Shown: positions 15,138-54,617 of the stretch, piece after piece
Layout: the number at the start of each line of letters is the position of its first letter
How positions within the stretch are numbered: the first letter of the stretch is position 1
NCBI RefSeq assembly: GCF_000003815.2
Contig: NC_049993.1
Span: 5,733,686 to 5,797,685 of the forward strand
DNA length: 64,000 bases
Source: Branchiostoma floridae
Taxonomy: Eukaryota > Chordata > Leptocardii > Amphioxiformes > Branchiostomatidae
Direction: 5' to 3'
Made by a program: the position numbers and the translations under genes
The notes under the pieces: generated by a model
What the model saw: the letters and a program-made list of their open reading frames with translations, nothing else
Database searches by the model: none
What the model was told of the DNA's origin: nothing

Positions 15138-15140
<3 letters not shown>

Positions 15141-15222: not shown

Positions 15223-15225
<3 letters not shown>

Positions 15226-15633: not shown

Positions 15634-16341
15634 GGCAACGCCCCTTCACCTTGACTGATTACATACCGCCCTAGCTGTTACTCAACACAAAACGTGAACT
15701 GAATCTCGAGGCTCCCCAGATGAATAGATAAAAAAAAATTATTTTTTCCTGCGGTCGTGACACATTGTAATCTCCTTGTTCTTTTTGTCACAGAGGCGAA
15801 CAACCCGAAAACTACTTCTTTGCATGTCGGTCGGGCGGGCGACTAGCGGGAAATCACGCGAGAAATTGTATCACACAGAACAGCTTTAACCTGTACATGT
15901 CACACTTCACTTGTTTATCCACTCTGAAGATCCCCACGTACATGATGTATGTATAGCCGGGATAAACAATAAACGGCTTTAGGGAGCTTCCGCCTTGCGT
16001 GTCATGTTAAGTCGGATAATGCTATAATCAAGACCGGAAGGCTCTGCATGTTTTCATTAAATCCCATGTAGTGACATGAGATGACCAAAAATGGTGGTAA
16101 ACCAACGAGACTTTCAAATAGACTTATACTAATCAATTACTCCTTAACACATCTACAAACAACCGGCTTTCCGACGCCTCATTATGATAATCCAATATCT
16201 TATTTCAATATTATGACAGTTACGCCGGTGTAGCAAACAGTACGGCAGACCGAGCAGATCGTCTGCGTTCTGCTTTCCGCTAGCTCGATGCGTTTGTTTT
16301 GCAGACTGTAAAGGCTAGGTCCGTTTTATTGTCTGTTTGAG

Positions 16342-23716: not shown

Positions 23717-24637
23717 TTAGTTAGGGATATCAGAACTAGGCAAGAGTTCTCTCCTGGTTCTCATGGCGGCCACCTGTCGGACGCACCCGGACAGCACCTG
23801 CCGACACTCCCGCTCGAACCCCGACAGCGTGCCGCTCCCGTCGCCCCGCCGCATGTAGCTGTCCAGCACGGAGGTGTACAGTTTGGCATCCACGATCTTC
23901 AGCTCGGCGATGGCGGCGTAGTTTCTGACGGTCAGCTTGCCGAAAGGTTCGTGCATACAGGCCTCGGAGACGGACAGGGACCGGTCCGATCTTAGACGTG
24001 CCAGGATTCGGCCGTACGACTCGTGGATGGGCCTGACTTCGGAGATAGAGAGTTGATCCGGGCGGTCGTCATCGGTGCGGGTTGCCTTGGTATTTGGTTC
24101 ACTTGTATCGTCCACTTCCTGCTTCCTCTTTCTACCTGTCTCAGTGCTGTCAGGGCTTGCTGAGCCGGACGGGCTGGACTCAGTAGTCTCGCGTGGTGGT
24201 GACCTGACGGGAGGAGACCGGGACCGCAGGGCGGGAACGGCAGCCCCCGGTAGCTGCTTCGGCGCACCCTCGTTGCTACCAGGGGCGAACTTTGGACTTC
24301 GCTCGATGGTCTCGGCGATGGCGCCCACGACTCTGTGGTAGCGGTGCAGCATGAGCATGGAGATGTACAGGGCGACTCCCATGCGGCGGTGGCTGTTCAT
24401 GATGAGACTCGAGGCCGGGTGGAACCTCTTGTCGCAGTCGTCACACAGGGACACCACCCTGTCGCTGTTGTAGTAGACACACACGGGGTCCAGGCAGATC
24501 CACGTCGCCTGAGCTCTGCAGTGAAGGCATCGCAAGGACCGTGCCTTGTTGTCCAAGTCGCCGATCTTTCTCATGACCCACTCGGCGCGAGTTCCACCGT
24601 AGTGCGCGGTGTCTAGGTTGCTGTTTCCCCTCTGCAT
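23717..24637 (-). CDS. B-box-like zinc-finger protein 1
   Basis: A single-exon reading frame of 306 aa starting at 24637. Residues 37-83 hold eight candidate zinc ligands (C37, C40, C48, C53, C65, C68, H73, H83) with spacing C-x2-C-x7-C-x4-C-x11-C-x2-C-x4-H-x9-H, which fits a cross-brace B-box. A hydrophobic helix follows (about 87-105), then a long Ser/Pro/Arg-rich, probably disordered linker with a KRKQE basic patch, and a conserved-looking C-terminal domain (about 200-300). The ligand spacing is identical in the gene at 45947 on the opposite side of the deiodinase cluster, which confirms that the reading frame is real. No RING or coiled coil is seen, so this is not a TRIM protein. Function unknown; a protein-interaction or transcriptional role would be a guess. 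Confidence 0.8.
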   Translation of the reverse strand: MQRGNSNLDTAHYGGTRAEWVMRKIGDLDNKARSLRCLHCRAQATWICLDPVCVYYNSDRVVSLCDDCDKRFHPASSLIMNSHRRMGVALYISMLMLHRYHRVVGAIAETIERSPKFAPGSNEGAPKQLPGAAVPALRSRSPPVRSPPRETTESSPSGSASPDSTETGRKRKQEVDDTSEPNTKATRTDDDRPDQLSISEVRPIHESYGRILARLRSDRSLSVSEACMHEPFGKLTVRNYAAIAELKIVDAKLYTSVLDSYMRRGDGSGTLSGFERECRQVLSGCVRQVAAMRTRRELLPSSDIPN

Positions 24638-25864
24638 GTTGACGATACAAAATAGGATGTTGTGCCGGACGTCCTCAATACGAGATCGCTATGGACAGTC
24701 TGTGAGCGCAAAATTGAATAAACTCCAGGCCAGGTCGATTTTTTCTGACAACGAGTGATGATCTGGGGACCAAAGCAGGCCGTGTCGTCTCCACGCACGC
24801 AGATGTTTGAATGAAGGACAGAAGGTGTCGCCAGTCCGACCGGTCCTTGCTGTTACTATCTTGCGTAACTTACTACCTTAATAGCTGAAGCCCGTAGCAT
24901 TTATATGCGGTCCAGGTGCCAGCCTGAACCGCAGCTAAACGCAAGTGAAATCATCGACAACAACAACTCAACATCCCACCGTCGCACCTTACTCCTGGCC
25001 ACAACAAAACTCCGGAACTCATTACCACAACACAAAGTGACCATTAGGGACAGACAGACGCTTACGACACTTCTACAACCTACGTCAGCGCCCTTATAAT
25101 AAGGACAGCTGCTAAAGCTGAAGATTGGTGTCAACTGCATGTGGAAAAAACAATAAAAAAGACCAATACTTTTTTTTTTTCTGCTAAGACCAAACTGACT
25201 TAAACGTGTGGATGCCATCCTTTTGAGACCCCAAAACTAATGCAAGAGGGCAGCAAAAAATGCTGCAGCAAAAAATGCTGCTAAAATTCCCAAACCACAG
25301 AACATAGTGTATCAAACAAGCAAATGTTTATTTGTGCATTCAATGTAGCTTGGTGATGATCAAAGAAGGTAGGCTGTCCTGTTCCTCTCCCTTCTTAGCG
25401 TTCAGAAGGACCCCTACGGCACGACACACTTCAAGTCCACAATATACATGTACTCCCCTCACGTTTGTTTCCTTGTTGTGCAAGGTCCAAGTGCGAACTG
25501 GTCTCGACAGGACGTTTTTGAAATTTTCTGGGAGTCTGTCATAAATCGGTGCAAATCTAAAATTCCCCGGACCATCATGGATGGCCTACTAATCCACAAT
25601 TACGCCCAGTCTTCTTGTGTACTTTGTGGCTGACGAAGTACAAACACATTCACTAAGTTTTGCTGTAGACCGTTATAGGTTTTATGATAAGTTCCCTCCT
25701 GCTGGCCTTTGGGGAGGGGTTTGTGAGTATACAATGCCGTCAATTCCGAGGGTCTCCTTGATTTATTAGAACAGCCCCAAAATCAAGAAAGCTTGCGGAT
25801 GTACTACATGAAATCAAATCAGTGTGACCTAATCTGAACGGCCCAAAATCAGCTAGCTCGAGCA

Positions 25865-27991: not shown

Positions 27992-30885
27992 ATGAAGGCG
28001 CTGCAAGGCGTTTCTCTCGCCCTCAGGTTTGTGGGTTTTGTCGTGTTCTTTGTTACAACGCGGGCTGTCCGAGCGGTCCTTGGTGTTCTGTCTCCCTCCC
28101 TGCAGAGAAAGTTGGAACTCCATGTCGCCAAACGATCTCAGATGTGTGACTCTTCCCTGGCGATGGAGGACTACATCGATCTGGTAGGTAACATTGATGT
28201 GTGTGTGTGTGTGTGGGGGGGGGGGGGTGCCCTGTGTGTCTACTTGTCGGAACGGTGTTTTGAGAGCAACGGTATACGGAGATAGATCAGTATAAACCCG
28301 ACAGTTAGAACTGCAGTACTACGACACAAAAAGTTAGGTAGAGCGACATTCTGTGAACGGTAACGTTGGACTTTGGACCGCCCTTGGGTTGCGGTCCACC
28401 TTTTGTTCCAAGGTCATGCCCCCAGGAGTCAAGGGACCACAAAGAATGATAAACATGTTTGGGTGCCAAATAGATACGGCTATCGGCCTTTACAAAATGT
28501 ACGAAAAAAAACAACAACAAAAATAGTACTTTTAGCTTCAATGTGTATTTGCCAACGTCTTGCAGGTAATGATAAGGTAGACAGCCATGCGGCCGCCATA
28601 TTCAGTAGCTAGCGCTGCCCAAGAAATGCCCCCGCATTCATATCTACCATTAGAAATAGAAAAATTCTTTAAAAAAAATCACATTCCTTTCGTCCTGTGG
28701 ATCGCAAAAAAAGTACCAAAAAGGAGTTGGCGATTTTCTGAATCGGCCTGAGGACTTGGTGAATGATTATGTTGTTCCATGGCCAGCTCTTCACGTCCAC
28801 CGCGTTCTGGACCTGGTGGGAAGAAGGCCATGTGAAAGATCTCCTGTGTGAGACCAGGGTGGGAGGGAAGGCTCCTGACGCTCCGCTCCTGCACATGGAC
28901 GGACTCACACAGGCACGGCTGATGGAATTCGCCATGAAAGGTGTGTATCTGTTTATTTGTTTATCATAATGACCACACAAGTGCATTTATTAACTTGTAG
29001 TTGTTTGATTGGATGATAAGATTTTTAACCAACAGTAATGACGTAACCATGGCTGATAGACTTAATCAAGAAAGGCGTACAACAGGACAAAAGTGGTGAG
29101 CTAAAAGTTTCTGTTACAGTTAGTTGGCATGTTGAACTATTGAGCTGGTTATTCCTGGACCAGTAGTCTTGGTCTACTGTCTAGTGAAAGTGGGTTGCTT
29201 AGTGTTCGGTTACTTTTGAATACTGTATACATTGATAACACGGTGTTGATAAAGGTTTTCTAATGGACTTGTTCAAAGCAAGGCCATTTGACCTCCTTTA
29301 GGCAATGAACTAAGTTAATGGGTGAGGAAAATAGCGGTATAAACATTGGCTTTGTAGACTGGAAGACATGTTGTGTACAGGAGGAAAACAGTAGCCATTG
29401 AGAGTTCCTGGAAAAGAAACTGTTGCTGTTGAAGAACTTCGAGGCTTATTATTGAACAGTACAACGATGTGTTCTTAAACGAAATTTATCACTACTTAGA
29501 ACGTGAACGTATGGTTGTACATTTTTTAATCGTGGCGTTTCTACAATTGTCCCAGGGCGCCCCCTTGTGGTGAACTTCGGCAGCTGCACCTGACCACCGT
29601 TCATGGCGCATTTGGCCAAGTTTAACGACATGGTGGCCGAATTCGCCGACAGGGCCGACTTCCTGACGGTCTACATCGCCGAGGCGCATGCGTCAGACGG
29701 TTGGTCCTTCAGAAACAACATCAAGATCAGGTCGGTTTATTCAACTGTTTCACATACGACTGTAGCTCGATGTATACTAGAGGTACACCCCATACAATAA
29801 TACTACAGTTAGGACCGTTTTTCTATTTGACGAACCATTCTGCCAGGCTTCTTTTTTAACTCGTTAGTACCTTTTCATTGAAATGGAAAAAATAGCAGTC
29901 AACGTCACTGCCCCCTCCCCCAATATCTGCTCGGACATTACTAACACAACAGAAAGTGATGCAGATGATTTGTTACTGTCGTCAACATAGCTACAGTGTA
30001 TTTAGCTTGACTAAAATCGCGCTCCTCGCGGCCGGCCCTATAGTGTTGCTATTGGTCATTAACCCCAGCCAGCGAGAGATTGTGTAAACACAGGCTACAT
30101 CGTATTTTGCTTTCCCTGAAGCAAGCCACTGCCATTACACTAGCCTACAGTGTCATCCGAAGAAGAAAAATCAAAAGCAAAATTGGTCCCCACGACCTCA
30201 TCAAAATGTAAAGGATGATCCAGATTAGTTTACCTTATAGATACCATGCAGACAAAGGCGATTGAAGCGGGGCCAACATTTGCTAGCAAACTCTCTTTTC
30301 TGTCTTAATCCCAATTGAAGTTAGTACCAAATGTTTAAAATGGCTATATAACGATCACATTCAAGCGTTACTTTTACTGTTTTCAGGAAGCATAAAAAAT
30401 TGGAGGAACGTCTGGCAGCAGCGAAAATATTGGTATGTATGTTTGTATGCATGTGTGTCTGAATCGAGGAAGGGAGGGATTTAATTAATGTAGGGAGATA
30501 GACAGGCAATGTTGATGGCAATGTTGTTGTTGTTGACGTCATTATCACTGTTGTTGAAATGATCGTCACCATCTAATGTTTCGTTTTCTTTCTCTTAAAG
30601 TCCTGCCATCTGTGCTATTGTTTTTATTCATTATGCTGCTAGCATTATAATTGTTGCCTTTAGTCGTTATTGTTGTTTACTCCTCGCCAGGCCGACTCCA
30701 ACCTATCCGGTCCGCTGTTGGTGGACACTATGGATGACGTAGCCAACCGGAAGTACGGGGCGTGGCCTGAGCGGCTCTACATCCTGTTGGACGGGAGGGT
30801 CATGTACAAGGGCATGCCGGGACCGCACGGGTATCACGTGCACCAAGTCAGGGACTGGCTGGAGAAATATCTAAGGAACAATTAA
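27992..30885 (+). CDS. DIO: Iodothyronine deiodinase a (selenoprotein), 5 exons
   Basis: A membrane-anchored thioredoxin-fold enzyme that reductively removes iodine from iodothyronines. Exons are 27992-28183, 28787-28940, 29556-29730, 30387-30432 and 30691-30885; phases agree and the product is 253 aa, a normal length for the family. Exon 1 encodes the N-terminal membrane anchor (FVGFVVFFV). Exon 3 holds the active site FGSCT-U-PPF, where U is the TGA at 29591-29593, followed by EAHASDGW with the conserved His. Exon 5 ends in VHQVRDWLEKYL. I chose the ATG at 27992 because all three paralogues align from it; an in-frame ATG at 27920 would add 24 residues. A SECIS candidate lies about 570 bp after the stop. 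Prediction that treats TGA as stop would cut the protein in half. Confidence 0.95.
29591..29593 (+). other. DIO: Selenocysteine UGA codon, deiodinase a
   Basis: This in-frame TGA sits in FGSCT-U-PPF, exactly where the deiodinase family has catalytic selenocysteine. The frame stays open and homologous on both sides. Confidence 0.95.
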
Positions 30886-32368
30886 ATAACTTATCAAGTT
30901 AATTAAGCAGTATTGTCTTAGACTTAACCCTTATATTCACAACATATCGATATTCAGTGACGAATTCATGTTCCTAATGTTAAGTTTTATTGTGCACTGT
31001 GTGTTTGTTTGTTGGTTTGTTTACCTTACCTTAACTTAGTTAGTATTCTTCCTGAAGTCCTATACTATATACAAACATCAATACCTTACAGATTTTACTC
31101 ATAGCTCTACCTTACCGGCCTCAAATGAAATAACAGATAATTGAGATACATAATCATTTATTGTTAAGCAATCCTGACATTGAGAACAACAAGGATAAGA
31201 TGTCACAGGGGCCTGAATTCTTATGTTTTTATGTGTTTTTTTCATCATCCAAATGAAATCCACTGCGGTTATATAATTGAGTTCAATTCACCTTTAAATA
31301 TGTCTTAATTAAGGTTGTAATTACATTGTACATATCTGACAAAAGGTGTCCGTATATGTTTCTTTGTCTATATGCCCTTACGACGCTCTTATTACGACTC
31401 TACCGCGATATTACTTATGCAGTGACGTACAGCAATGTCAAGGACTTGTGGAGCGTATGAAGGATAAGGCCGTCCCTCTTCTGAGAGGTCTTGTCCGGAG
31501 ATAAGTCCCAAGTCCCTGCAATACTGTATAAGATGTGTAGGGGTCGCTGTCTTGTGTACTATACGTCAGCCATTTTGAGACGCAAGATCGGACATGTAAC
31601 AAATTATAGTTTTTACAGTAAGCTAATGATATGATGTTACTGCAGTGTTATCTGTATCTGTATCAATATAGCCGGTATAACCGCCCTTCGGCGTAACACA
31701 CCAGCTTCAACAGTAACAACCAGTGTTACCAGCTAAATGAAGGCTGTGCTCGCGGCGGAAAAAATATATATGTTATGCTACTACATTATGTGCTTAGCAT
31801 TGAAACCTCTTGGTTATATTCAATGAGGTTATTTAATGAGGATTTTATGTTACCTCCTTGCTATATTGTAGCATATGGCATACTGTTCAGTCACCATGGA
31901 TACCATAGATAGCCCCTTTGGAATAGCCCTTGGCTAGACGGGGTAGCCCTGCTTGCGTGTATTTATAAAGCTAATAAATGGAATCAAATCTCAAAACACC
32001 TGCTCGAAGACTCACCTTACGTACTACTCTTCGTGACTTCCTGGCCGCCGACATGAGTATATATGATTATGTGATTATGTTAACAACGAGAGAAAGAGAT
32101 ATTTACACAAAGTCATCAATCCTCAGAGATAGTACGAATGATCTGATCACCTACCAACATATCGGGAAGTAGTCTATGAATGGCTCTTTGAGCCTCGAAT
32201 CCCATTGACAAAGGCCACAGGGAATTCAGTGGTACAAAAAAGAAATGTTGATTCCTTTTGCTTTGTCCCCCACTCAGGCAATTTGGAATAGTCTGCCCTG
32301 TCCATCCGCCCGTACATAATTATCTTCCATACAGGTTATATGCACACATGAAAACATTCTTCCCCAAA
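30886..32368. other. 3' flank of deiodinase a and 5' flank of b
   Basis: It includes the SECIS candidate and AATAAA at 31973. The stretch up to about 31800 is repeated inverted beside deiodinase c (about 39350-39640 and 40240-40390). No other gene seen. Confidence 0.7.
31440..31510 (+). promoter_or_regulatory. SECIS element candidate, deiodinase a 3' UTR
   Basis: ATGA at 31457-31460 opposes GGAG at 31497-31500, forming the sheared G.A quartet. Between them GGATAAGGCC (31462-31471) pairs fully with GGTCTTGTCC (31487-31496), counting G-U pairs. The apical loop (31472-31486) begins GTCCC and has no AA. A basal helix GGACTT (31442-31447) pairs with AAGTCC (31503-31508). The element recurs in the 3' flanks of both paralogues with compensatory changes. 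A polyadenylation signal AATAAA follows at 31973. Confidence 0.8.
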
Positions 32369-34304
32369 ATGAAGGCGATGCAACGCGTTGCTCTCGCCTT
32401 CCATTTTGTGGGGTTTGTCATTTTCTTCGCGCTAATGCGGATTGTCACTACGGTTGTCGGTTTTCTGTTTCCCCCACTGAAGAGAAAAATGGACAACCAT
32501 ATGGCGAAGCAGGCTCAGATGGAAGAGAGTTCCCTAGCGATGGAGGACTACATCGATCTGGTAGGTAATATCCACTTATCCGGGTCAGGTCCAGCTATAT
32601 AATGGGATGTATATTTGCACACTCTTCATAATGGCTCCAATGGTGTTTTATTGACCAATTGGTCAATCGGCGACGTGCTTTACCTGGTACCTTTAAGCAA
32701 GATTTGATAGCAATCTGTTTAGTCAAGGGTCAAGCTTGAAGATGGTTATGCGAATGATGAAAATGCCACAATAACAGCTGGCTGAGCCGAGCATACTGAG
32801 ATTTGATACGCACTAAACCTCATCGCTTAACCACAGGGCATAACAAAACATCTCGCTTGTACACGATTCATGCATTCAAAAATCATATCTGTAACTTTTG
32901 AGGAAACGCCGTAGAGTCAGTTTTATTCCAGTGTATGTCTACCTCTGGTCATCTGGGAAAACACCCGTTCGTCCTGGTGTCTTGTTTTTTTTCCGAAGTA
33001 AGACAAGTAGGTTAGTTAGAGGACGCGTCACATGCAAAACTGACATCTTAACATTAGAAGAGCACACAGAGAATTCAGTTCCAATAGCCAGTGCACCAAT
33101 GGTATATGTGTGCACCAAAGTATAGAATAGGATTGAAAAATCTGTGTACAGCTGCCACAATCTTAGTGCTGATGTAACCTAGGAGGCAGACGATAAACAA
33201 AACGCTATGCATATTATACACGATGGATTTTGTGAAAGACTGAAAATCTGAAAAAGGACAGTCCAGTTTTTATTCCGAGGCCGCAAAATGTTGCTTAAGT
33301 GGATGACATCCGCGGATGCATGGGTGTGTGTGGTTTCCTAAAAAAATCTCGATATATGAACAAAGGAGAGGTAACGCAATGAACCATCAGATTATGTTAA
33401 GCAGCACTCTCTGTTGTTTTTTTGTACCATGTATGTGTAAAATATGCGTATAGACTTATTAGGACTTTAAATGATGTCAACTGTACCTCTGAGTCTGATA
33501 CATATTTTGCCTGGCTCTTACCATTTCCATCATCATCATCATCATCATCTTTCTTCCTCTTGAGTGGCGGGGCAAACGAAGTTAGTCCTCCAGAACTGCT
33601 TGTCTTTCATCGCAGAGAGAAGACCTTTCCCATCCAGTCCTGTTTCATCCTCAATGAGCTTCTTAAGAGTTGAGCTTGGACGGCCGACTCTTCTCTTAGT
33701 GTCGGGGGACCACAACAAGAGTCTACCAGCTGGTTCGTTGGCTCGAGCCACGTGACCCGCAAGGCACAGCCGACACTGTTTCACTTTTGTAGAGACTTTT
33801 GGTAGTGGTCCGTACAACTGTTTGTTTGTAGTATGTTTCCACCATGGACAGTTGTAGACTAGACGAAGCATCTTCCCTGATGACCTCAATGAAAAGCGAA
33901 CTGCGGGTCGATTTGAGCTTTATTGAATAAACAAGCAAATAAACAAACTGTATGTTGAGTAAGGCCAAAAGGTACTGTAAATGGTGATGTTGTTCCAGAT
34001 CTTCACGTCCTCCTCGTTCTGGACCATGTGGGAAGGCCGTGTGAACGATCTCCAGTGTGAGACCAGGGTGGGAGGGAAGGCTCCTGACGCTCCACTCTTG
34101 CACATGGACGGACTCACACAGGCACGGCTGATGGACTTCGCCATGAAAGGTGAGCTGGTGACCTAGTCAGTGTTTTGTAACTCCGGGAAAGAGGGTCGTA
34201 TGTAGAGGGTCGTATGTAGCTTGGCATGCCACCTGCTCGTAGCTGTGAGCTTTTTCTTTCGTTTGCATGATAAATGAGGAAAGTGTGTGTGTGTGTGTGC
34301 TTGT

Positions 34305-34384
<80 letters not shown>

Positions 34385-35997
34385 ATGAACAATATAACTC
34401 TCGAAGGCCTGGATGGATTGTCTTGATATTGGTATGTGGGTAGTTCTGAAAATGATCAGATTTGGGCCCCCTAGCGGCTTACGGTACTGCAGCTGAACTT
34501 CCGGGTTTGATACCTCGAGTTCTGGACATACTACGACCGTTGTTTTTGAGTGGTAGATAGCCCTTGGGACGGAGAGCACGTGGAGTTTATTATTGCATTG
34601 GGCTTTATTATTGCATATTTTATATATCTCGTCGTGTTTCTCCAATTGTCCCAGGGCGCCCCCTTGTGGTGAACTTCGGCAGCTGCACCTGACCCCCGTT
34701 CATGGCGCATTTGGCCAAGTTTAACGACATGGTGGCCGAATTCGCCGACAGGGCCGACTTCCTGACGGTCTACATCGCCGAGGCGCATGCGTCAGACGGT
34801 TGGTCCTTTAGAAACAACATCAAGATCAGGTGATTATAGCTTACCGTTACAAAGATGCCCGACGTGATGTAGCCATGGAACTGAAACACAGGCCATATCC
34901 CAACACCATTCGTCGTTAATCAGCTTAATTTAGATGCTTCACTTGTTGATGAAATGCAAATTGTAACAAGAGTTCTGTATTCTATGTTAGATATCTACAA
35001 TCAGCCTATGCTGCCTTTATAGCTTCTGTAATACAAATGCATTTTACCGACAGGATAAAGAAAAGTTTTATATCACTTTAAAGAACGCTCTACTTAATAG
35101 GTTGACTCTAAGCTCGGACTGATCCTTGGGAATCTTACTCAAATCGGTTTAAGAAAAATCGAGATGAAGGGATTACAGATGGCTCAAACGAATGACAGGT
35201 ATTCATAACAAACAAAACGGATGGTGTGATATTAAATCCACATCTGAGAAGGTGAATTTCCGGCTTTCAGGTCTAGCTAATCAACTGTGAGGTGGATCAT
35301 ATGTGCTGACAATCACCATACTTCCTAAGGATAGATAGGGTTACCTTAATCGTATTTGGTTACTGATTTTATAGACATAAAAACTAAGGTTATGATTAAA
35401 AAATTATATACTATATGTTTGCCTAGATTTTTTGCTGTGGTTGCATTTCTTATATCTCTTGGTGATTTCAGAAAGCATCGAACACTTGAAGAGCGCCTGA
35501 CTGCAGCGAAGATGTTGGTAAGTTTTAAGTTTTAGAGGAAAGGAGGCAGACATTCAGTTTGATTCCTAGCGTCTTCCCTTGGTACTGTAGTGGAACTTTT
35601 GATATTTTCATATCTCGTGTTCTGAACAAGGTATGATCATGATTTTGGGGTGTTAGATACATGTAGCTCTTGCTTGTTATATATTGGATAAAACTGCCGC
35701 CTATACGCAAGTTAGGTTGTGTTAAAACCAAAAGATCATTGATACATCACAATATCATTGTTATCAATGTTATTGTTGTTGTTATTGTTGTTTACTCCTC
35801 GCCAGGCCGACTCCAACCTATCTGGTCCGCTATTGGTGGACACCATGGATGACGTAGCCAACCGGAAGTACGGTGCGTGGCCTGAGCGGCTCTACATCCT
35901 ATTGGACGGGAGGGTCATGTACAAGGGCATGCCGGGACCGCACGGGTATCACGTGCACCAAGTCAGGGACTGGCTGGAGAAATATCTACAGGGTTAA
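32369..35997 (+). CDS. DIO: Iodothyronine deiodinase b (selenoprotein), 5 exons
   Basis: The most divergent paralogue of the cluster. Exons are 32369-32560, 33999-34149, 34655-34829, 35472-35517 and 35806-35997, giving 251 aa with the same intron phases as copies a and c. Exon 1 has a diverged membrane anchor (FVGFVIFFALMRIV). Exon 2 has FTSSSFWTMWEG. Exon 3 is nearly identical to that of a, with Sec TGA at 34690-34692 in FGSCT-U-PPF and the EAHASDGW motif. The C terminus is YLQG rather than YLRNN. An upstream in-frame ATG at 32348 could add seven residues (MKTFFPK). Intron 1 contains a LINE fragment and intron 2 a long (GT)n tract. Two SECIS-like hairpins lie downstream, with AATAAA after both at 37020. 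Confidence 0.95.
33527..33889 (-). pseudogene. LINE ORF2 C-terminal fragment in intron 1 of deiodinase b
   Basis: The minus-strand frame 33889-33545 encodes LAGHVARANEPAGRLLLW, KRRVGRPSSTLKKLIEDETG and a tail ending FVCPATQEEE, typical of the C-terminal end of non-LTR retrotransposon polymerases. A (GAT)n tract follows on the minus strand, a usual 3' tail. Confidence 0.75.
34280..34382. repeat. (GT)n microsatellite in intron 2 of deiodinase b
   Basis: About 100 bp of GT with a few interruptions. Confidence 0.95.
34690..34692 (+). other. DIO: Selenocysteine UGA codon, deiodinase b
   Basis: An in-frame TGA in the active-site motif FGSCT-U-PPF, aligned with the same codon in copies a and c. 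Confidence 0.95.
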
Positions 35998-36416
35998 CTC
36001 AAATCATACTCTAAGGTTCATACTTGTGGTTCACAACAAACAATAATTCAGATTTAATCATAGTGATATCTTACATTGAAAAACATATCTGTAAACATGC
36101 ACCAAGTCCGGGATTACTTACAGGACTAATTTATCACTTACACTTAATGTATGTCTTTCTATGCCAACAGATACTCAGGGATAATGTGTTTAACTATTTC
36201 ATGTGCCATCGGTCCGACTGTGTAATCAGCTAGTAAACAAAAAATAGATCAATTCATTAGATAAGGACTAACCAGGAAATTTGCCATCCGTAGGTTTTCT
36301 GTATGTTACGCTCAATGTAATGTCACATAGCCTATCAGTTTTCAGTATTTCTCTTAGTCTTGCCCATCATGTCTGCCCGTTACAACATTAGATCACCGAT
36401 GTCATACGATACTGTG

Positions 36417-36496
36417 GAGAACTTGTGAAGCCCATGAAAGAGAAGACCGTACCTCATCTGAGAGGTTTTCTCCGGAAATAGAATGTTCACAAAGTT
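36417..36496 (+). promoter_or_regulatory. SECIS element candidate 1, deiodinase b 3' UTR
   Basis: ATGA at 36434-36437 opposes GGAA at 36474-36477. Nine of ten positions pair between AGAGAAGACC and GGTTTTCTCC, with base changes on both sides relative to copy a. The apical loop begins GTACC. A long basal helix forms between the stretch before the quartet (GAACTTGTGAA) and TTCACAAAG after it. Confidence 0.78.
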
Positions 36497-36844
36497 TTCA
36501 CGGTGTTCTATACATGGGTGGGACTGTAGCTGTGTGTATAGTCAACTATCGCTGGGCATATGTAGCCCCCTCTAGGCCTTCCTATGGGGGTACAAATCGC
36601 AGAAGTTGGCAAAACATTCAGAAATTGGCCAGGGGAGTCAATTAATTAGAAAATAGCATTTCCCTGCGTGAAAATAAAAACCCCGGTAGCAAAACTCCCT
36701 TGGCAAATTAGCGTAGTCAGTCTGGTGGAGACTAGGACCGTCACATATTCTGTCTACATGTCTTGTTTGATTTTCCCTTGTTAGCTGTTTTATGTATAGC
36801 TGTAAACTCATCAATAGAAAGATACCATATACATACAGCACTAT

Positions 36845-36920
36845 GGAGAACTCTGTGGAGCGTATGAAGGATGGGACCGTCCCTCGTCTGAGAGGTCTTG
36901 TCCGGAAGAATAAAAGTCCA
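36845..36920 (+). promoter_or_regulatory. SECIS element candidate 2, deiodinase b downstream
   Basis: A second copy about 430 bp after the first. ATGA at 36864-36867 opposes GGAA at 36904-36907. GGATGGGACC pairs with GGTCTTGTCC at all ten positions, several as G-U. The basal helix is weak compared with candidate 1. Its flanks (AAGTCC, then CTTGCAGTGCTATA) resemble those of copy a. It lies before the AATAAA at 37020 but just before another AATAAA at 36909, so it may be in the same mRNA. Confidence 0.65.
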
Positions 36921-37139
36921 AAGTCCTTGCAGTGCTATATGTCATAGGTAGGGGGCGTTTTACTGTGAAGGGAATGTATGTCATATTCCCAGTGCTCAGT
37001 ACTGTTTGTCTGAATGTGAAATAAACGACGGTATGTCACAAAATAAAGCAATTGTGTGGTTTGCCTGTGTCGGTCATTTAGAAGACAATGTGCACTTAAA
37101 ACGGTAACTTCAGTAAACTCCAGAAGGGCACAACGGATT

Positions 37140-37186
37140 TTTACCTTTGCCAGAATGGCTAAGGTTATGTTTTGGGCGTGTTTGTA

Positions 37187-37258
<72 letters not shown>

Positions 37259-39110
37259 CAACATAACTCAAGAAGCCTTGGATGGATCCTGATGATATTT
37301 GGTAGGTGGGTAGGGGTCGGGAAAACAAAGGTCAAGTTCGATAATGGGCCCCATAGCGGCTTGCTAAGGTACTGCAGCGGAAACTCAATTTTTTATTTCT
37401 CGTGTTCTGGACATGCTGTGGTCATGATTTTTGAGTGGTAGATAGCCCTTGGGGCAGAGAGTAAGGGCTGTGAGTTTGGGCCCCCTAGCGGCTTTTTTGG
37501 AACTGCAGGCGCCGGTTTCCTTTCAAACTTTGGACGAGAATAACTCTACAACGTGTTGACGGATCTTCATGATTTTTGGTATGTAGATAGAATGAGTGTT
37601 GACTTATTAACTATGCAAATCAACAGCTAATTTGCATAATTAATGAGGAAAGTTTATGAATCCACTGCATTCCATGATAGGACTTTGAAACTTGTCACAT
37701 ATGTAGCTGGGAAGGAGGGAAATGTCAATAGATATCAATTATGCAAATGATGATCTCATTTGCATAATTGATGAGAAAATATGAAGATGTTGACGGATCA
37801 TCAGGGTTTTTGGTATGTAGGTAGCGTAAGGTTCCGGGTCGGAGTTCAAATCTGACCGGAGTTGGCGGAAGGGTGGTGTAATAGGCCGGAAGTGCACTGT
37901 TGTCTCCCTAACTTTTGCTCCCTATTGCTTGGTGATCGTTATAGCTGAGCATAAATTTGTCGTATTTCCTGAAAAGCCCGTGGTTTGTATTGTTTTTGTG
38001 CGAGGAGTAGTTGGTCGGCCAGCGAAACCATTTTTGTATTAGTCCGCTGCAACGGTGATGCGGTTTGTTCGCCTGATGACCCAAATAGCATCGTTTTTCA
38101 CGCGATTTCGAAGAAATGACGTCATCGGAGATTGCAAAAAAGTTATCACATGGAATTTTTTTATTTTCATTTTACACAAACATGAAGAATTTAGCTTCTC
38201 TACCACGTAGGCCGTTATCCTGGGAAAATTCGTTTTTCCCAAGCAGCTTTGATCAAAAAAGTGTTAAAAAATGATAGTTTTCGGGTCCAAAATTAAAATT
38301 TTACTACATTTTCTACCCAAAATAAAGAGACAACAGACGATACCAATAGGTTTGTCAGAAATACGCAGTAAACGGCTTTCCACCATATTGATTAAGTTTC
38401 GCGTCCTACGTTTACTAGCGGAACTGTAGCCCTTCGGCCTGAGGCTGTCCGCCAACCTCCGAAATTATAAAAGAAACTCCGGTCCGAGACTGTAAGTGAA
38501 GACATACATAATGAGATACCAATTATGCAAATCAACAGCTAATTTGCATAATTAATGAGGACATTTTATAAATCCACTACATTCCATGATAGGATTTTAA
38601 ACTTGTCACATATGTAGCTGAGAAAGAGAGAAATGTCAGTACATATTCATCATGCAAATGATGACCTCATTTGCATAATCAATGAGAAAATATGAACGTG
38701 TTGACGGATCGTCATGATTTTTGGCATGTAAATAGCCTAAGTGAAGACTTATATAATGTCATACTTATTATGCAAATTAACAGCTAATTTGTATAACTGA
38801 TTAGGAAAAGTTCATAAATCCACAGCATTCCATTATAGTACTTTCAAAGTTGTCACATATGTAACTGAGAAAGAGGGAAGAGAGTAAGAGGTGTATTAAA
38901 AGACTTGAAAAGAGAATAACTCAAGAATGGATCAAAGGATCATCATGATTTTTGGTATGCTGATATCAATTAATTGTAACTTGGGATCTAATTTGCATAA
39001 TCAATGCCGAAACTTTATAAACCAACTCCAAGCATATAATCTTGAAATGAAATGAGTAACGATTTGTCTACAGACGTCATTCTACATAACAAACCTGGTT
39101 TATTTGGCAA
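37140..39110. repeat. Interspersed repeat with ATTTGCAT-bearing units
   Basis: Blocks with TTGACGGATCATCA, TTTTTGGTATGTAG and ATTTGCATAATTAATGAG recur about every 220-250 bp (near 37550, 37790, 38500, 38700, 38930). A 650-bp block with inverted ends bearing GTTGGCGG and CCGCCAAC interrupts the series at about 37835-38490. Confidence 0.65.
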
Positions 39111-39275
39111 AGGTATGTGTTCGTGGAACTCTAGTTCCAACTAGTCTGAGTGTAGGGCACAGCAGAAGGAATCATTGGATTGACTTTTGTCAATGGAATC
39201 GGTCAAAAAGCTATTCATAGAATTCCCGATATGTTGGTAGGTAATCAGACCCTTTGAGGATTTATGACTGTGTGT

Positions 39276-39349
<74 letters not shown>

Positions 39350-39564
39350 TAAGACAGTTATATAGTTATATATAGTTTGTTCCGCCGTGAGCACAGCCTT
39401 CATTTAGCTACAACAATGCAGTAACATCATATCATTACCTCACTGTAAAAAAATAAACCCTCTCATTTATTTTATAGTACATGTCCAATCTTACGTCTCA
39501 AAATGACGTATAAGTACACAAGACAGCGACCTCTACACATCTTATACAGTATTGCAGGGGCTTT

Positions 39565-39635
39565 GGATTTATCTCCAGACAAGACCTCTCAGACGAGGGA
39601 CGGCCTTATCCTTCATATGTTCCACAAGTCCTTTA
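39565..39635 (-). promoter_or_regulatory. SECIS element candidate, deiodinase c 3' UTR
   Basis: On the minus strand ATGA (39616-39613) opposes GGAG (39576-39573). GGATAAGGCC pairs with GGTCTTGTCT, the last pair becoming G-U. The apical loop begins GTCCC as in copy a. AATAAA on the minus strand follows at 39471-39466. Confidence 0.78.
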
Positions 39636-40021
39636 CTTTGATGCATGTAATGTGGCGTTCTCGTCGTAACGAATGGGCATTTAGACCAAACCATCCCTCA
39701 ATACTCTTAACAACATATAAAACGTTATATATGGATAATTTTTGTCGAATATGTTATTACAAAGACATATTCAGGTATCATCTGAAACGGACCAAAATAT
39801 ACAAACGCAGTGGATCTCATTTAAATGTCGACAACGTGTTAGAATTCAGACCCATGAGATATTTTATCTTAATTCGCAATGTCAGGATTACTAAGCAATT
39901 GTATACTAAGCCCAACTGCCTGTAATTTCATTTGAGCCCGATGAGGTAGAATTATGAGTAAATCTGTAATAATAAAGGTATTTATGTTTGTATGTAGTAT
40001 AGGACTCCAGGAAGAATAGTA

Positions 40022-40237
40022 ACCCAAAATAGTAGCCCAAAAAGCTTTATCTAAATGTTGATGTAAATATGTTTTAAGATTTTATATTGATATCTCGCTT
40101 CTTTCTCAAATTGTCAATATGTATAACGCTGGTGACTGAAGTGCTATTTTGTGTTATGATATGTTGTGTAAAATCAATGCAATTCAGCCCCTATGGGGGC
40201 TGCAAAGTTGATTGTAATAAAGTTTCAAGTTTCAAGT
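40022..40237 (+). mobile_element. Retroposon 3' end beside deiodinase c
   Basis: The insert ends GTAATAAAGTTTCAAG and is flanked by TAAC. The deiodinase a counterpart near 31045 lacks it. Confidence 0.55.
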
Positions 40238-40391
40238 AACTAAGATGCATGTTACTAATGGGTATCCTAAACCAACCAACAAACAAACAATGCACAATAA
40301 AACTTAACATTAGAAACATAAATTCGTCACAGAATATCGATGTGTTACTTGTGAAACCAAGGGTTTAGTTTAAGACACTGTTGGAAGCTAT

Positions 40392-43300
40392 TTAATTGTT
40401 CCTTAGATATTTCTCCAGCCAGTCTCTGACTTGGTGCACGTGATACCCCTGCGGTCCCGGCATGCCCTTGTACATGACCCTCCCGTCCAACAGGATGTAG
40501 AGCCGCTCAGGCCACGCCCCGTACTTCCGGTTGGCTACGTCATCCATAGTGTCCACCAATAGCGGACCGGATACGTTGGAGTCGGCCTGGCGAGAAGTAA
40601 ACAACAACAATTATTATAACAACAACAATTATAGCGTTAGCAACATAAAGAGTGAAATAGATGGCAACGACAAACTTCAAGATATTAAAAGAAACACCGT
40701 AGATGGCGGCGGTCACTTCAACGACAGTGATAATGTCGTCAACAACAACAACATTGCCATCAACATTGCCTCGCTACCTCCCTAATCTCCAAGCAGATCC
40801 TACGGTAGNNNNNNNNNNNNNNNNNNNNNNNNNNNNNNNNNNNNNNNNNNNNNNNNNNNNNNNNNNNNNNNNNNNNNNNNNNNNNNNNNNNNNNNNNNNN
40901 NNNNNNNNNNNNNNNNNNNNNNNNNNNNNNNNNNNNNNNNNNNNNNNNNNNNNNNNNNNNNNNNNNNNNNNNNNNNNNNNNNNNNNNNNNNNNNNNNNNN
41001 NNNNNNNNNNNNNNNNNNNNNNNNNNNNNNNNNNNNNNNNNNNNNNNNNNNNNNNNNNNNNNNNNNNNNNNNNNNNNNNNNNNNNNNNNNNNNNNNNNNN
41101 NNNNNNNNNNNNNNNNNNNNNNNNNNNNNNNNNNNNNNNNNNNNNNNNNNNNNNNNNNNNNNNNNNNNNNNNNNNNNNNNNNNNNNNNNNNNNNNNNNNN
41201 NNNNNNNNNNNNNNNNNNNNNNNNNNNNNNNNNNNNNNNNNNNNNNNNNNNNNNNNNNNNNNNNNNNNNNNNNNNNNNNNNNNNNNNNNNNNNNNNNNNN
41301 NNNNNNNNNNNNNNNNNNNNNNNNNNNNNNNNNNNNNNNNNNNNNNNNNNNNNNNNNNNNNNNNNNNNNNNNNNNNNNNNNNNNNNNNNNTGATACTGTC
41401 TTATGCTACCGTAGGATCTGCTTGGAGATTACTACCTCCCTACATTATAATCCCTCACCTCATTATAATCTCTCACCTCCCTCCCTCTCTCGATTCATAC
41501 ACACAGACATACAAACATACATACCAACATTTTTGCCGCAGTCAGACGTTCCTCCAATATTTGATGTTTCCTGAAAATAATAATGAATAAAACAACAATA
41601 AAAGTAATGTTTACATTGGATCATTATCTAGCCATTTAATTTTAAAACTTTGGTGTTTAATTCACTTTGGAATTAAGACAGGAAAAAGTGGCATTTCACG
41701 TTTGCTAGCAAATGTTGGCCCCTCGCGTTAATCGTCTTTGTCTGCAGAGTATCTCTAAGGCAAAGTAATCTGGATTATCCTTTACATTATGATGCGGTCA
41801 TGGGGAGGTAAACCAAATCTACTTTTCATTTTGCTTATCTGGATAATACTGTAGAATAGAAGGATGACCGTGGTCGTGGATTATAAAGGACAAAATACGA
41901 TATCACTATGGTAACGGAGTAACAAGTCACCTGCATTACTTTGTGTTATGTTAGTAGTTTTCAAGCTTCAACACTTTTGAGGCGGTGACGTTAACTTTAT
42001 GCCATTCCAATGAAAAAGTGCCAAATTGTTCGAAAAAAGCCTGACAGAATGTTTAAATAGAAAAGAACGGTCCTGGCTGTAGTATTATCGTATGGGGTGT
42101 ATCTCTACATTAAGCTACATTTGTATGTGAAACAGTTGAATAAATCGACCTGATCTTGATGTTGTTTCTGAAGGACCAGCCGTCTGACGCATGCGCCTCG
42201 GCGATGTAGACCGTCAGGAAGTCGGCCCTGTCGGCGAATTCGGCCACCATGTCGTTAAACTTGGCCAAATGCGCCATGAACGGGGGTCAGGTGCAGCTGC
42301 CGAAGTTCACCACAAGGGGGCGCCCTGGGACAATTGGAGAAACACAGCGAGGGATAAAAAAAAATACTAGTATGTACTTTCTACTCTGTAAATTTGCCAG
42401 TTATGCTAGGATCCTTCATCTTTCTTGACCAAGACAGACAACCGTGCTTATTCCATACCTATTTGGTAAAACTTATCATCACCTTATCAACCAACTGGTA
42501 AACCGCCAAGTAATAAGTTAATCTACACTTCTTGTGAAATCCTGCTGTTGACAGATTCAGAAATCACTTTGTGTTCGATAACCTCTGTACCTGGTCTACT
42601 GCATGTACGAGGGGCGGTCAATAAATAATGCCCCTGACCCATTTTCCATAGCAGGAGATTAATGAAACTTGGCACAGTTATTAGTCTTTCTCTTCATAGA
42701 AACCACCCAGAGTTATGCATTTCTCCCATCGTTTGATGCAGCTCAGGACACCGTTTTTGTAGGACACCCAGGTTGGTCCTCCATCAGATGCCTCATCAAT
42801 GGCAGAAGAGGGACGACCAGGTCTGGGAGCTGTTTCCACAGACTTCCGGCCATGTTTGAATTTAGGATGCCAGCGTTTTACAAGGTCATATGATGGGGCA
42901 TCATCACCATAAGTTTCTTTCATTTCATCAAAAGTCTTCTTTGGTGTGCGTCCTTTCAAATACAAAAACCGGATCACTGCGCGATACTCAACTGGTTCCA
43001 TTTCACACCTGGTCCATTTCGCACCTGACTCAGTTCAAACACCAGTAAATCAGAAACCACAATTAGTTCAGAGTTGTTTTTTGCAACATAACCTATGAAG
43101 ATATGAATCATTACACATACAAAATTTCATCTAGATCAGACGACTGGAAGTGGGTCAGGGGCATTACTTATTGACCGCCCCTCGTAAGTGCGGTCCTTGC
43201 CAGGTTGTAAGGGCTCCGCAGTCTCTGATGGAATATGTCGTCTTTTATCAGTATATTAATCTGTATCATTGCATTTTTATGTCGGGGCGAGGGCTAGTAA

Positions 43301-44512
43301 AGGTAACACCACCTGTTTTTTGGTGATTAGGATAAATAAGTTAACAAATACACACCTTTCTTAGCGAAGTCCATCAGCCGTGCTTGTGTGAGTCCGTCCA
43401 TGTGCAGGAGCGGAGCGTCAGGAGACTTCCCTCCCACCCTGGTCTCACACTGGAGATCTTTCATCACTTCGCTTTCCCACATGGTCCAGAAAGAGGTGGA
43501 CGTGAAGAGCTGGAACAACATAAACATTCATCAAGTTCTCAGTTCAATTTTAAAAAAAAATCTCAAAATCTCGTTCTCGTTTTCGGTACTGCTTTGTTTT
43601 GGTAATTCTTTGCAAAATAGTCGGTATTAACGGCATGGTTAAGCCAAACATTTTGGAAACCATGTCTACATAACATGTGTTGTACACTTATAGCCCAGTC
43701 TTGTTGTAGCTCAACATTAGTATTATATATGCTTTCTTTACAAATCTGTCACTTGGGAGACTATGTAATCTAAGCCAGTGTTAATTGTGATTGTGAATCA
43801 ATGTAAAGTGATAGGAAAGCTGATATGATTGCAGGTTCTGGGGAGTCATGTTTCTTGTGCTGGGCTAGCTACAATATGGCGGCCGCAGGGTTGTCGACTT
43901 TGCATTATAAATGCAAGATGTTGGCAAATACATCTGGTTAGCAGTGTCTTTTTTTTTATTAGTTTCGCATACATTCTTGCAAAGGCCACTGTTGGCACCC
44001 AACCATGTTTATTATTCTGTGAAACCACTTGAGGTGAGAAACCACTTGATTCCTACGGGCATGACCTTGCAACACAAGTTGGACCGCAGCCTAAGGGTCC
44101 AATGTCCAACCTTACCGCTCACAATCGCTACAATTAGCGAACATGCTGTTTGTGTCTTTGGTCACAGTACTGCAGTTCTAATGGGTTTTCAATTCATCGG
44201 ATCTATTTCACTATACTTATTGTGTTTACTTAAGTTTGAATGTATCCAAAGACAACACAACACGCACATAAACACCACACACACGCAGCCACCCACCCTT
44301 CAACATTAATGTTTACCTACCAGATCGCTGTAGTCCTCCATCGCTAGGGAAGAGTCACACATCTGAGATCGTTTGGCTATATGGATGTCCATCTTTCTCT
44401 GCAGGGAGGGAGACAGAACACCCAGGACCGTTCGGACAGCCCGCGTGGTAACAAAGACCACGACAAAACCCACAAACCTCAGGGCGAGAGAAATGCCTTG
44501 TAGAGCCTTCAT
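40392..44512 (-). CDS. DIO: Iodothyronine deiodinase c (selenoprotein), 5 exons, inverted
   Basis: Exons on the minus strand, in order: 44512-44321, 43509-43356, 42324-42150, 41570-41525 and 40586-40392. Lengths 192, 154, 175, 46 and 195 equal those of copy a and give 253 aa. The anchor is MKALQGISLALRFVG. Sec TGA is at 42289-42287 in FGSCT-U-PPF, followed by EAHASDGW. The C terminus is YLRNN. It differs from copy a at scattered residues, for example AKK for AMK at the end of exon 2. Intron 2 holds a mariner-derived MITE and intron 4 a TIR element with an assembly gap. Introns and 3' flank are also homologous to copy a, so this is an inverted genomic duplicate and not a retrocopy. Confidence 0.94.
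40783..41431. mobile_element. TIR transposon of the 5799 family in intron 4 of deiodinase c
   Basis: Ends TAATCTCCAAGCAGATCC and GGATCTGCTTGGAGATTA, flanked by a perfect 9-bp duplication CTACCTCCC (40774-40782, 41432-41440). The interior is mostly a gap, so its true size is unknown. Deiodinase a intron 4 shows the unoccupied site near 30493-30501. Confidence 0.8.
40809..41390. other. Assembly gap (582 N)
   Basis: Run of 582 N within the transposon in intron 4 of deiodinase c; it does not touch an exon. Confidence 1.
42287..42289 (-). other. DIO: Selenocysteine UGA codon, deiodinase c
   Basis: TCA on + is TGA on the coding strand, in FGSCT-U-PPF, aligned with copies a and b. Confidence 0.95.
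42608..43184 (-). mobile_element. Mariner-derived deletion element in intron 2 of deiodinase c
   Basis: Inverted ends CGAGGGGCGGTCAATAA and TTATTGACCGCCCCTCG with TA on both sides. The minus-strand frame 43001-42681 encodes the mariner DNA-binding head (VEYRAVIRFLYLKG, DLVKRWHPKFKHGR, GRPSSA). It then jumps to a C-terminal piece (IKRWEKCITLGG), so the catalytic DDE domain has been deleted. Confidence 0.88.
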
Positions 44513-45946
44513 GTTGGATTATTTGTCATTATTTACTTTGTTGACCGACCTGGTTTTGTGTACATATATGACGGGTAAGGTATACACTAATACAGATTAT
44601 ACCATATTGCTTCCATTGAGGGGGGATGCTTTTTGAAGTTGCAATAATGTAACGTTCTTACTTTGTCAAGACCATAGGCAAAGGCTCGTATTGGGAAGGG
44701 CACCGCGGTTACCTTTGAGAGATTATCTTGTCTTGTCTTGTCTGATATCCTTTCTTTCACCCATTCTTGTGCGTATGGCCGCGGAGGTTAAATTCAACCT
44801 CATTGGTATGACGAATACCACCTCTCTTCTTGATTTGGCCCCTACCCTATTGCCATTCAAGGCCGAGTTGATCAGATGCAATCAAGTGCAAATAATTCCT
44901 GGTCCTGGCACAAGACCGAACGCACCTTTGTTTTCACTTGTCTGACCACTATTGCGTGCAGGTTGAGGCAAAACCGCTAGGTGGGGTCTGAAACACGCCA
45001 GCTCGTAATATATGTAATGTATGGTACGCGTTTTTTGGTTCAGAAACAAATAAATAGATTGAATAAAAAAGATAAAGGTATGACTAGAATCAGGATGTTC
45101 TATGATTTTGTTCTTCTCTCTATTTTTTGCCTTTCTTTTAACCACAGCAAGTAAATCTTATGGATGGCATCCTCTTCAGACTGCAAAAATAGTGAGATAG
45201 GGCACAAAAAAACGAACAAGATGGGTATAAAATGCAAGATGGCTATTTTTCAAAATAGACAACGTTGTAACAAGAACTACATTGTAACAAGTACACAGGG
45301 TACATTATACCACAGCCAATGTATTCATTCTTATATTAAATACATGTACTGGTGTAGTAAAAGTTCTGGTGCATCCCCGTCTTGTAATTAGCTAGCCAGA
45401 GGGTACCGTATGTCCCCGGGTATAACCGCGTCGTGTGTAAACACGTCGACCGATGATGATGATTGGCGCCACTTTTACAACTATCCATCTAGTTTCACTT
45501 CTACAACTACAATCCTGGATACCTCCCAAGTGTCAGTTCTACAAATCAAATACAATTAGTAAGCTAAAACACAACGTATCAGCTCATTTAGTAATTTTGC
45601 GTCATGTTGACCATCTCTTAAGTTTTTTTTTTTAAGTCAGGCGAAAATTTATGAGCGCGTGGATGTCATTCATAAGATTTACTTTCTATAGCCTAATCTA
45701 CTTTGAAACGTCTTGCACACCCTCAAACACCTGCATATGTAAACAAATGTGTAGCCAGGTGAGGTAAGCCAGCTTGGTGCCGACTGGCCGGACCGGTTCT
45801 GCAGGGCTGGAGACGCGCCAACAGAATCAGAAAACCGGTTCGTAGATCGGACGGACGCAACAGCCGCTCCTTTCCACTGTTTCTCGTTCCGCAAACAGCG
45901 CTTCGGTGTGCTTTTTTCTTGAACACAGATCCTGCAAAGTTGAGAT
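44513..45946. other. Shared 5' flank of deiodinase c and zinc-finger gene 2
   Basis: The two genes diverge from this 1.4-kb region, which must hold both promoters. About 530 bp of it is a TIR element (45151-45682). No TATA box or other site stands out. Confidence 0.6.
45151..45682. mobile_element. TIR element upstream of zinc-finger gene 2
   Basis: Ends GTAAATCTTATGGATGGCAT and ATGTCATTCATAAGATTTAC are inverted with a few mismatches. The ends resemble the GGATGACATCC block of the 17481 element. Confidence 0.6.
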
Positions 45947-46390
45947 ATGGAAAGAGGAGATAAAGTCAGCTACCAGGGCTCCCGCGCAGAGTGGATCTTG
46001 AAGAGAGCGAACGACTTCGACGAAAAGGCGCGGTCGTTTTCGTGCGGCGGGTGCGGCGGGGTAGCGACGTGGGTCTGCCTGGACCCGGCCTGCATCGCCT
46101 ATAACCAGTCCATGGCGCTGTGTCTGTGTGACGACTGTGACCATCGCTTCCACCCGGTGTCCAGCCCCGTCATGTGCCGACACCGCCGGCTCGCTGTGGT
46201 CCTGTACATCTCCTTGCTCATGCTGTACCGCTACCGTAAGATCGCCGAGGCCTTCACGAGCCAGAAGCAAGAAGAACAACAGGGACAGCCCGCTTTGGAA
46301 AGGCACGTCCACGACCTGACAAAACCTCAGCTAACGACAGAAGAGGATCTGAAGCTGAAAAAAGAACCAGACTCGCCACCGCCACAATAG
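45947..46390 (+). CDS. B-box-like zinc-finger protein 2
   Basis: A 147-aa single-exon frame and a shorter paralogue of the minus-strand gene at 23717. Residues C33, C36, C44, C49, C61, C64, H69 and H79 keep exactly the ligand spacing of that gene, with matching TRAEW/SRAEW, LDNKARS/FDEKARS and LYISLLMLYRYRKI/LYISMLMLHRYHRV stretches. The C-terminal half found in gene 1 is absent; the frame ends in an acidic and Pro-rich tail (KKEPDSPPPQ). It lies outside the inverted deiodinase c and points away from it, mirroring gene 1 beside deiodinase a. AATAAA occurs at 47903. Function unknown. Confidence 0.78.
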   Translation: MERGDKVSYQGSRAEWILKRANDFDEKARSFSCGGCGGVATWVCLDPACIAYNQSMALCLCDDCDHRFHPVSSPVMCRHRRLAVVLYISLLMLYRYRKIAEAFTSQKQEEQQGQPALERHVHDLTKPQLTTEEDLKLKKEPDSPPPQ

Positions 46391-54545: not shown

Positions 54546-54617
54546 GGTGATGACAGGAAGGACGTTGAAGCACTTGAGCTTTGTGCAGTACACTGGAACG
54601 GTCCGCATTGTCCTCAT
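54546..54617 (-). repeat. Partial LRR copy in the 5' leader of the F-box gene
   Basis: The in-frame leader encodes MRTMRTVPVYCTKLKCFNV, nearly the same as MRTIPAYCTRLKCFNV in exon 1 (about 53960-54010). It may be 5' UTR, an alternative N terminus, or a scar of local duplication. Confidence 0.6.

Follow-up and report, generated by a model that had tools for sequence, protein, structure and literature searches.

Three clustered, probably functional selenoprotein deiodinase genes in the amphioxus Branchiostoma floridae and a candidate recoding hairpin downstream of their UGA codons

The subject of the present analysis is a 64,000-nucleotide stretch of the Branchiostoma floridae (amphioxus) genome (G000:C15:5733686-5797685, referred to as “the window” and numbered from its first nucleotide), in which three iodothyronine deiodinase genes of five exons each (two on the plus strand, one on the minus strand) were reconstructed exon by exon at positions 27992-44512 (the coding span of the cluster, beyond which the 3′ untranslated regions, or UTRs, extend further). 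All three are, very probably, functional selenoprotein genes, as is suggested by their gene structure, their homology, the selenocysteine insertion sequence (SECIS)-like structures in their 3′ UTRs and the pattern of their divergence. A three-gene cluster of this sort is ordinary in kind and was already published for B. floridae in 2012 (PMC3473315); the parts that seem to be worth an experiment are a candidate recoding hairpin following the selenocysteine (Sec) codon and the layout of two SECIS-like elements and polyadenylation signals in one of the copies.

Copy 1 (27992..30885, plus strand; exons 27992-28183, 28787-28940, 29556-29730, 30387-30432 and 30691-30885) and copy 3 (40392..44512, minus strand; exons 44512-44321, 43509-43356, 42324-42150, 41570-41525 and 40586-40392) both comprise 253 codons, for proteins of 253 residues, in exons of 192/154/175/46/195 nucleotides, and copy 2 (32369..35997, plus strand; exons 32369-32560, 33999-34149, 34655-34829, 35472-35517 and 35806-35997) comprises 251 codons, for 251 residues, in exons of 192/151/175/46/192 nucleotides. 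GT-AG ends are present at all 12 introns, whose phases are 0, 1, 2 and 0 in every copy, and each copy has one in-frame TGA, found at the catalytic position within the motif GSCTU-PPF (29591..29593 and 34690..34692 on the plus strand for copies 1 and 2, 42287..42289 on the minus strand for copy 3), with no further stop before the TAA at its end. Conserved coding sequence flanks this TGA on both sides in all three, which is one mark of a eukaryotic selenoprotein gene. The initial annotation, made by a model from the letters of the sequence, had proposed three intact Sec-encoding deiodinases side by side, with the catalytic TGA kept, no other stop, and five exons of equal phases and near-equal lengths, all of which is borne out by the gene models and by their PF00837 matches (E-values from 2e-66 to 3e-69). 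The interval it gave, 29556-42324, does lie inside the cluster, but begins and ends at the third exons of copies 1 and 3, leaving out the remainder of 27992-44512 and the 3′ UTRs.

An additional in-frame ATG lies seven codons 5′ of the start assigned to copy 2 (window 32348-32368). Intron 4 of copy 3 contains a gap of 582 Ns (40809-41390), with the exons of this copy being complete; on either side of the gap (window 40780-41430) inspection by eye shows inverted copies of some 26 bases and what may be a 9-base target duplication, a configuration suggestive of a DNA transposon whose insertion disrupted the assembly. Intron 2 of the same copy (window 42598-43194, minus strand) holds a degraded, apparently mariner-like element with inverted ends of 102 bases and transposase-like peptide fragments.

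The T4_deiodinase family (PF00837) matches all three predicted proteins with E-values of 2.2e-66, 2.9e-69 and 2.7e-68 for copies 1, 2 and 3, respectively (224-233 bits against a cut-off of 27), the profile being covered from position 17-30 through 236 of 237. A search against solved structures, made with copy 2 alone, returned 4tr3 (mouse Dio3; E 4.6e-46) and 9h48 (type II deiodinase; E 1e-32). The alignment of copy 2 with Dio3 runs through the Sec motif and the EAH-SDGW, KH..LEER and ERLYIL segments, and the same segments occur in copies 1 and 3; the FGSxTU-type Sec motif, the E-A-H and the downstream histidine and arginine of copy 2 all align with 4tr3, while KH and ERLY are present in all three copies, and these aligned residues are the catalytic ones of the family. 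The two prolines after the Sec position are shared with the DIO2 and Dio3 chains, and the cysteine two residues before it with Dio3 and DIO1; a Sec-Pro-Pro motif of this kind would predict resistance to PTU. A hydropathy scan revealed an N-terminal hydrophobic segment in each copy (KD-19 maxima of 1.98, 2.36 and 2.07, as opposed to 0.98 or less elsewhere), and a segment of this kind (maximum 1.8-2.6) also turned up in all 11 deiodinase genes found in the genome. PMC8699336, by contrast, describes non-vertebrate chordate deiodinases as apparently devoid of an N-terminal membrane segment.

The whole genome (513.4 Mb, 431 contigs) was searched with exon 3, which gave 11 places, and with PF00837, which gave 22 exon matches; such genome counts are lower bounds for large families, and thus at least 11 deiodinase genes are present, ten with a TGA and one with a cysteine codon. 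Beyond the cluster, these are a four-exon gene on the same chromosome (C15b), the genes C1a, C1b, C7a, C7b and C12 (named after their chromosomes and having a large first and a small last exon), and a pair of C9 genes without introns, one encoding Sec (C9a) and the other Cys. Three further PF00837 matches on C5 (30-34 bits, two of them with an internal TAA) were not counted as deiodinase genes. On C7 (L013, G000:C7:4767000-4776900), two tandem Sec-bearing first exons precede a single recognized last exon (RLYIVLDG...), meaning that C7a and C7b may be one gene with alternative first exons; otherwise one of them would be a copy deprived of its last exon. The Cys deiodinase (L010, G000:C9:8768001-8777500) is located about 9 kb from the intronless Sec form, and may be the published bfDy.

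In a catalytic-domain tree the three copies form one clade (ultrafast bootstrap 100), apart from the Dio3 and type II chains and from DIO1, whose sequence, both for the tree and for the identity comparison, was not drawn from a database record. The phylogeny against vertebrate DIO1-3, proposed by the initial annotation as a check, accordingly yields no DIO1, DIO2 or DIO3 counterparts: one-to-one orthology was rejected, as the copies group together instead of each with a different type, and identity to the vertebrate catalytic domains is just 44-48%. Once DIO1 is added, the clade falls within the vertebrate/C9 group at a bootstrap of only 40-46, a value too low to place it among the DIO types. 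Judging from this phylogeny, the three copies are a lineage-specific expansion and not counterparts of DIO1/2/3.

Folding of the 3′ UTRs brought up SECIS-like hairpins, overlooked by the initial annotation, in every copy: one each in copies 1 and 3 and two in copy 2. A scan for the SECIS core (RTGA, at least 8 of 10 helix pairs, NGAN) over both strands of the whole window produced 22 matches, among which the copy 1 element (31440..31530, plus strand, ATGA core at 31457) ranks 1, that of copy 3 (39553..39633, minus strand, core at 39616) ranks 2, element B of copy 2 (36847..36920, plus strand, core at 36864) ranks 3, in a score tie with one antisense match, and element A of copy 2 (36417..36490, plus strand, core at 36434) ranks 7, in a tie with two others. 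All four lie on the sense strand, 3′ of the stop codon and 5′ of an AATAAA, and base pairing holds in 98% of the cells of their helices II and III, as against 33-50% when slid by 1-3 bases. Copy 2 has an AATAAA at 36673, between its elements A and B, another at 36909 that overlaps the 3′ flank of B, and two more downstream. The same scan, applied to seven other loci, found a match 318 nucleotides 3′ of the stop in C15b (score 26; the next best on either strand scores 17), one at +348 in C9a (score 20, with an antisense match scoring higher, 22) and one at +95 in the Cys gene (score 20), with nothing convincing for the C1, C7 and C12 genes, meaning that the scan misses some elements or that these lie elsewhere. 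The Sec-decoding machinery is represented by tRNA-Sec; of 12 tRNA-Sec matches in the genome, four exceed the cut-off, three of them at 71-80 bits.

Several results weigh against three working selenoprotein deiodinases. Covariation among the four SECIS-like sequences does not rise above shuffles (117-207 of 500 reach the observed value), their apical bulge is CC or AC instead of the usual AA, and the Rfam SECIS family gives no match at its gathering score in the window and none up to an E-value of 10 in the three 3′ UTRs. The tRNA-Sec model also matches 14 of 14 prokaryote controls, five of them over the cut-off. Splice donors after exon 3, the Sec-bearing one, are weak in all three copies (GTCGGT at 29731, GTGATT at 34830 and GTCGAT at 42149), and intron retention or regulated splicing could follow from such donors. 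The substrate, too, could be something other than iodothyronines.

If the preferred reading of three functional deiodinase genes holds, each primary transcript would have its five exons spliced together, and the in-frame UGA would be read as Sec with the aid of the 3′ UTR SECIS hairpin (two in copy 2), perhaps assisted by a hairpin beginning 11 nucleotides after the UGA. The resulting enzyme would combine a membrane anchor at its N terminus with a catalytic domain of the thioredoxin fold, and its selenolate would be expected to remove iodine from iodothyronines or from their acetic-acid forms; activity of an amphioxus deiodinase on one such form, Triac, was reportedly described by Klootwijk in 2011. 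The catalytic exons have been kept almost identical while the anchor, linker, introns and UTRs drifted, and any division of labor among the copies would, given this contrast, more likely be one of location or expression than of chemistry.

The hairpin mentioned above was found by folding and pair counts at 29605..29647 in copy 1 (stem 29605-29618 with 29634-29647, plus strand), 34704..34746 in copy 2 (plus strand) and 42233..42275 in copy 3 (minus strand). Its stem begins 11 nucleotides after the UGA, compared with 6 in SELENON, and 13 of its 14 positions pair in each of the three copies. In the same register, 12-14 of 14 pairs form in nine of the ten Sec genes, C15b having 9 and the Cys paralogue 4. 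Fold stability was compared with synonymous shuffles at 37 offsets in nine of the 11 genes (all save copy 3 and C7b), and in the window starting at the UGA each of the eight Sec genes has a z of -1.78 or lower, the Cys gene being at -0.29 there and between -0.29 and +0.78 across all comparisons made with it. The hairpin is apparently new and, with moderate support from these folding comparisons, resembles the selenocysteine redefinition elements (SREs) known from other selenoprotein genes; the chance that it functions as a recoding element may be put slightly below even.

The three copies have diverged very unevenly. Exon 3 differs at 2 of 175 bases per pair with zero amino acid changes, its 59-residue peptide being identical throughout, and exon 5 is nearly identical across the copies, most of the differences being found in exons 1 (membrane anchor; 46/191 between copies 1 and 2, 46/190 between copies 2 and 3, 15/192 between copies 1 and 3), 2 (linker) and 4. 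Copies 1 and 3, inverted with respect to each other, also share introns over their longer aligned parts, although for intron 2 the alignment is limited to 35 bases, and copy 2 introns match theirs only in short stretches adjoining exons 3 and 5. Whole-gene dN/dS (the ratio of nonsynonymous to synonymous change) is 0.35-0.47 among the copies. Codon identity of the core, compared with codon permutation for 15 gene pairs, is elevated in three of them (p 0.006-0.0075, 25/31 codons each, cluster copies against C1a or C7a), with copy 3 against C12 at p 0.062 (21/28) and the other 11 pairs at p 0.11 to 0.71. On these comparisons, the anchor and linker vary, whereas the catalytic parts show no such freedom in their protein sequence and, to some extent, in their RNA sequence as well. 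The “retained or diverged roles” suggested by the initial annotation are thus favored as regards retention (SECIS-like elements, dN/dS, an unchanged exon 3 peptide and tRNA-Sec all pointing that way), but not as regards catalytic divergence, since the copies share one exon 3 peptide and almost the same exon 5; any diverged roles would have to be sought in the anchor or in expression.

It could be argued that only one or two of the copies work, the others being young pseudogenes whose frames have not yet decayed and which are kept alike by gene conversion from a working copy. Synonymous change is indeed lower in exons 3 and 5 than in exons 1 and 4 (exon 2 being left out of the contrast) for all three pairs (Fisher p 0.0004, 0.013 and 0.00001), near-identity extends about 25 bases into the introns upstream of exon 3 (copies 2 and 3) and of exon 5 (copies 1 and 2) despite the otherwise unmatched copy 2 introns, and the catalytic domain of copy 2 is 97% identical to that of either other copy, with copies 1 and 3 at 94%, which contradicts the exon 1 and intron kinship of the latter two and means that gene parts tell different histories. 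Such a scenario nevertheless seems unlikely, as a frame, splice sites and a SECIS-like element of its own survive in every copy in spite of an intron drift that has brought copies 1 and 3 down to 70-77% identity over the longer aligned parts, and the drop in synonymous change around the UGA recurs in five relatives (the C1, C7 and C12 genes) on three other chromosomes, where conversion within the cluster cannot explain it. Owing to these relatives, and to the high third-position GC there, conversion was not accepted as the sole cause of the scarcity of synonymous differences in exons 3 and 5, although it may have played a part. More improbable still is that the selenium site of the thioredoxin fold serves a general redox reaction and not iodine removal: the weak second Pfam match of all three copies to AhpC/TSA (E 5e-06 to 2.7e-07) fits a shared fold, yet T4_deiodinase is far better (E below 1e-65), and the Sec-flanking residues and histidines of copy 2 align with Dio3.

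The hairpin faces a considerably stronger competitor, as it might be a mere by-product of a conserved peptide and GC-rich codon use with no recoding role, which we consider to have a chance not far short of even. Synonymous resampling already yields about 10 of the 14 pairs in most Sec genes, third-position GC of the core is high (0.80-0.95 in nine of the Sec genes, although 0.62 in C15b), and shuffling dinucleotides in four stretches leaves a z of only -1.1 to -1.8. C15b, off register with its 9 pairs, and C9a (p 0.21-0.41) are not above the null for in-register pairing and C12 barely is (p 0.085-0.195), while single genes reach a lower z elsewhere (copy 1, -4.0 at +20; copy 2, -4.0 at -20 and -3.7 at +20). 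Against such a by-product speak a joint p of 0.0027-0.010, for energy and for pairs alike under three gene choices, with codons resampled from the core and one gene taken per group (these groups, being of common ancestry, count as only partly independent), and a group-mean z that is the lowest of all 37 offsets at the UGA-start window (-2.19; eight Sec genes, four groups). Pairing over ten sequences (nine of them distinct; the Cys gene was set aside as a contrast) amounts to 89.7%, as opposed to 29-43% in registers slid by 1-3 bases, and four of the 14 pairs have changed on both sides. The Cys paralogue, for all its similar third-position GC (0.79), forms only 4 of the 14 pairs; its peptide differs, though, so that it is not a clean control. 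One may tentatively entertain, at somewhat worse than even chances, a joint reading in which an SRE-type hairpin after the UGA, common to three subfamilies distributed over five chromosomes but not found in the Cys paralogue, acts together with the unusual CC-type SECIS elements of the cluster, with polyadenylation choice in copy 2 setting whether an mRNA has one or two SECIS and so tuning Sec insertion.

According to Jiang et al. 2012 (PMC3473315), the published B. floridae cluster (Bf.DI_a/b/c) is likewise made up of three Sec deiodinase genes, of which one is opposite in strand to the other two and one has two SECIS elements. There, however, the two-SECIS gene is the opposite-strand DI_b, whereas in the window this role falls to copy 2, which shares its strand with copy 1; assembly, haplotype or naming are possible reasons for this mismatch. 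A table of the same paper counts 9 deiodinases in B. floridae, compared with the 10 TGA-bearing genes seen here. With vertebrate DIO1/2/3 the copies share the family, the Sec position, the aligned catalytic segments and the N-terminal anchor, differing from them in the modest identity given above and in that none of the copies corresponds to one particular vertebrate type; vertebrate Dio3 is intronless according to PMC3316567, which treats Dio2 and Dio3 as vertebrate-specific. Triac is mentioned as an amphioxus hormone in PMC8699336.

SREs, in the sections of PMC8704476 and PMC4561486 considered, are coding-region stem-loops 3′ of the Sec UGA described in SELENON, SELENOT and SPS2, and the candidate SRE presented here is a predicted coding-region stem-loop just 3′ of it. 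PMC4561486 speaks of SREs in “many selenoprotein genes”, citing Howard 2005; deiodinases are not named in the passages of the SRE literature examined (these two papers included), although Howard 2005 may name them. The layout of copy 2 resembles that of SELENOP, the mRNA of which, per PMC5133445, has two SECIS elements and, in human and rhesus, a poly(A) site between them: the two SECIS-like elements of copy 2 have putative AATAAA signals between and after them, although copy 2 differs from SELENOP in having a single Sec codon.

The cluster illustrates that the amphioxus deiodinase repertoire has grown by its own duplications, which makes the roles of vertebrate DIO1/2/3 not simply transferable to it. 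Should the hairpin prove to be a genuine recoding element, a reporter could directly test how efficiently Sec is inserted in deiodinases, and SREs would be extended to an enzyme family that goes unnamed in the examined portions of the literature on them.

As for the surroundings of the cluster, it is flanked by two related Cys/His-rich open reading frames (ORFs) with a CDDCDxRFHP motif in opposite orientation (23717-24688, minus strand, and 45944-46390, plus strand), the former having a below-cut-off Pfam match to CCDC106 and the latter no Pfam match. Repeated pieces of rhodopsin-like G-protein-coupled receptor genes occupy window positions 1877-19181 upstream (three were tested, all matching 7tm_1), and ORFs with F-box and leucine-rich repeats are situated past copy 3, at window positions 51594-54638 on the minus strand.

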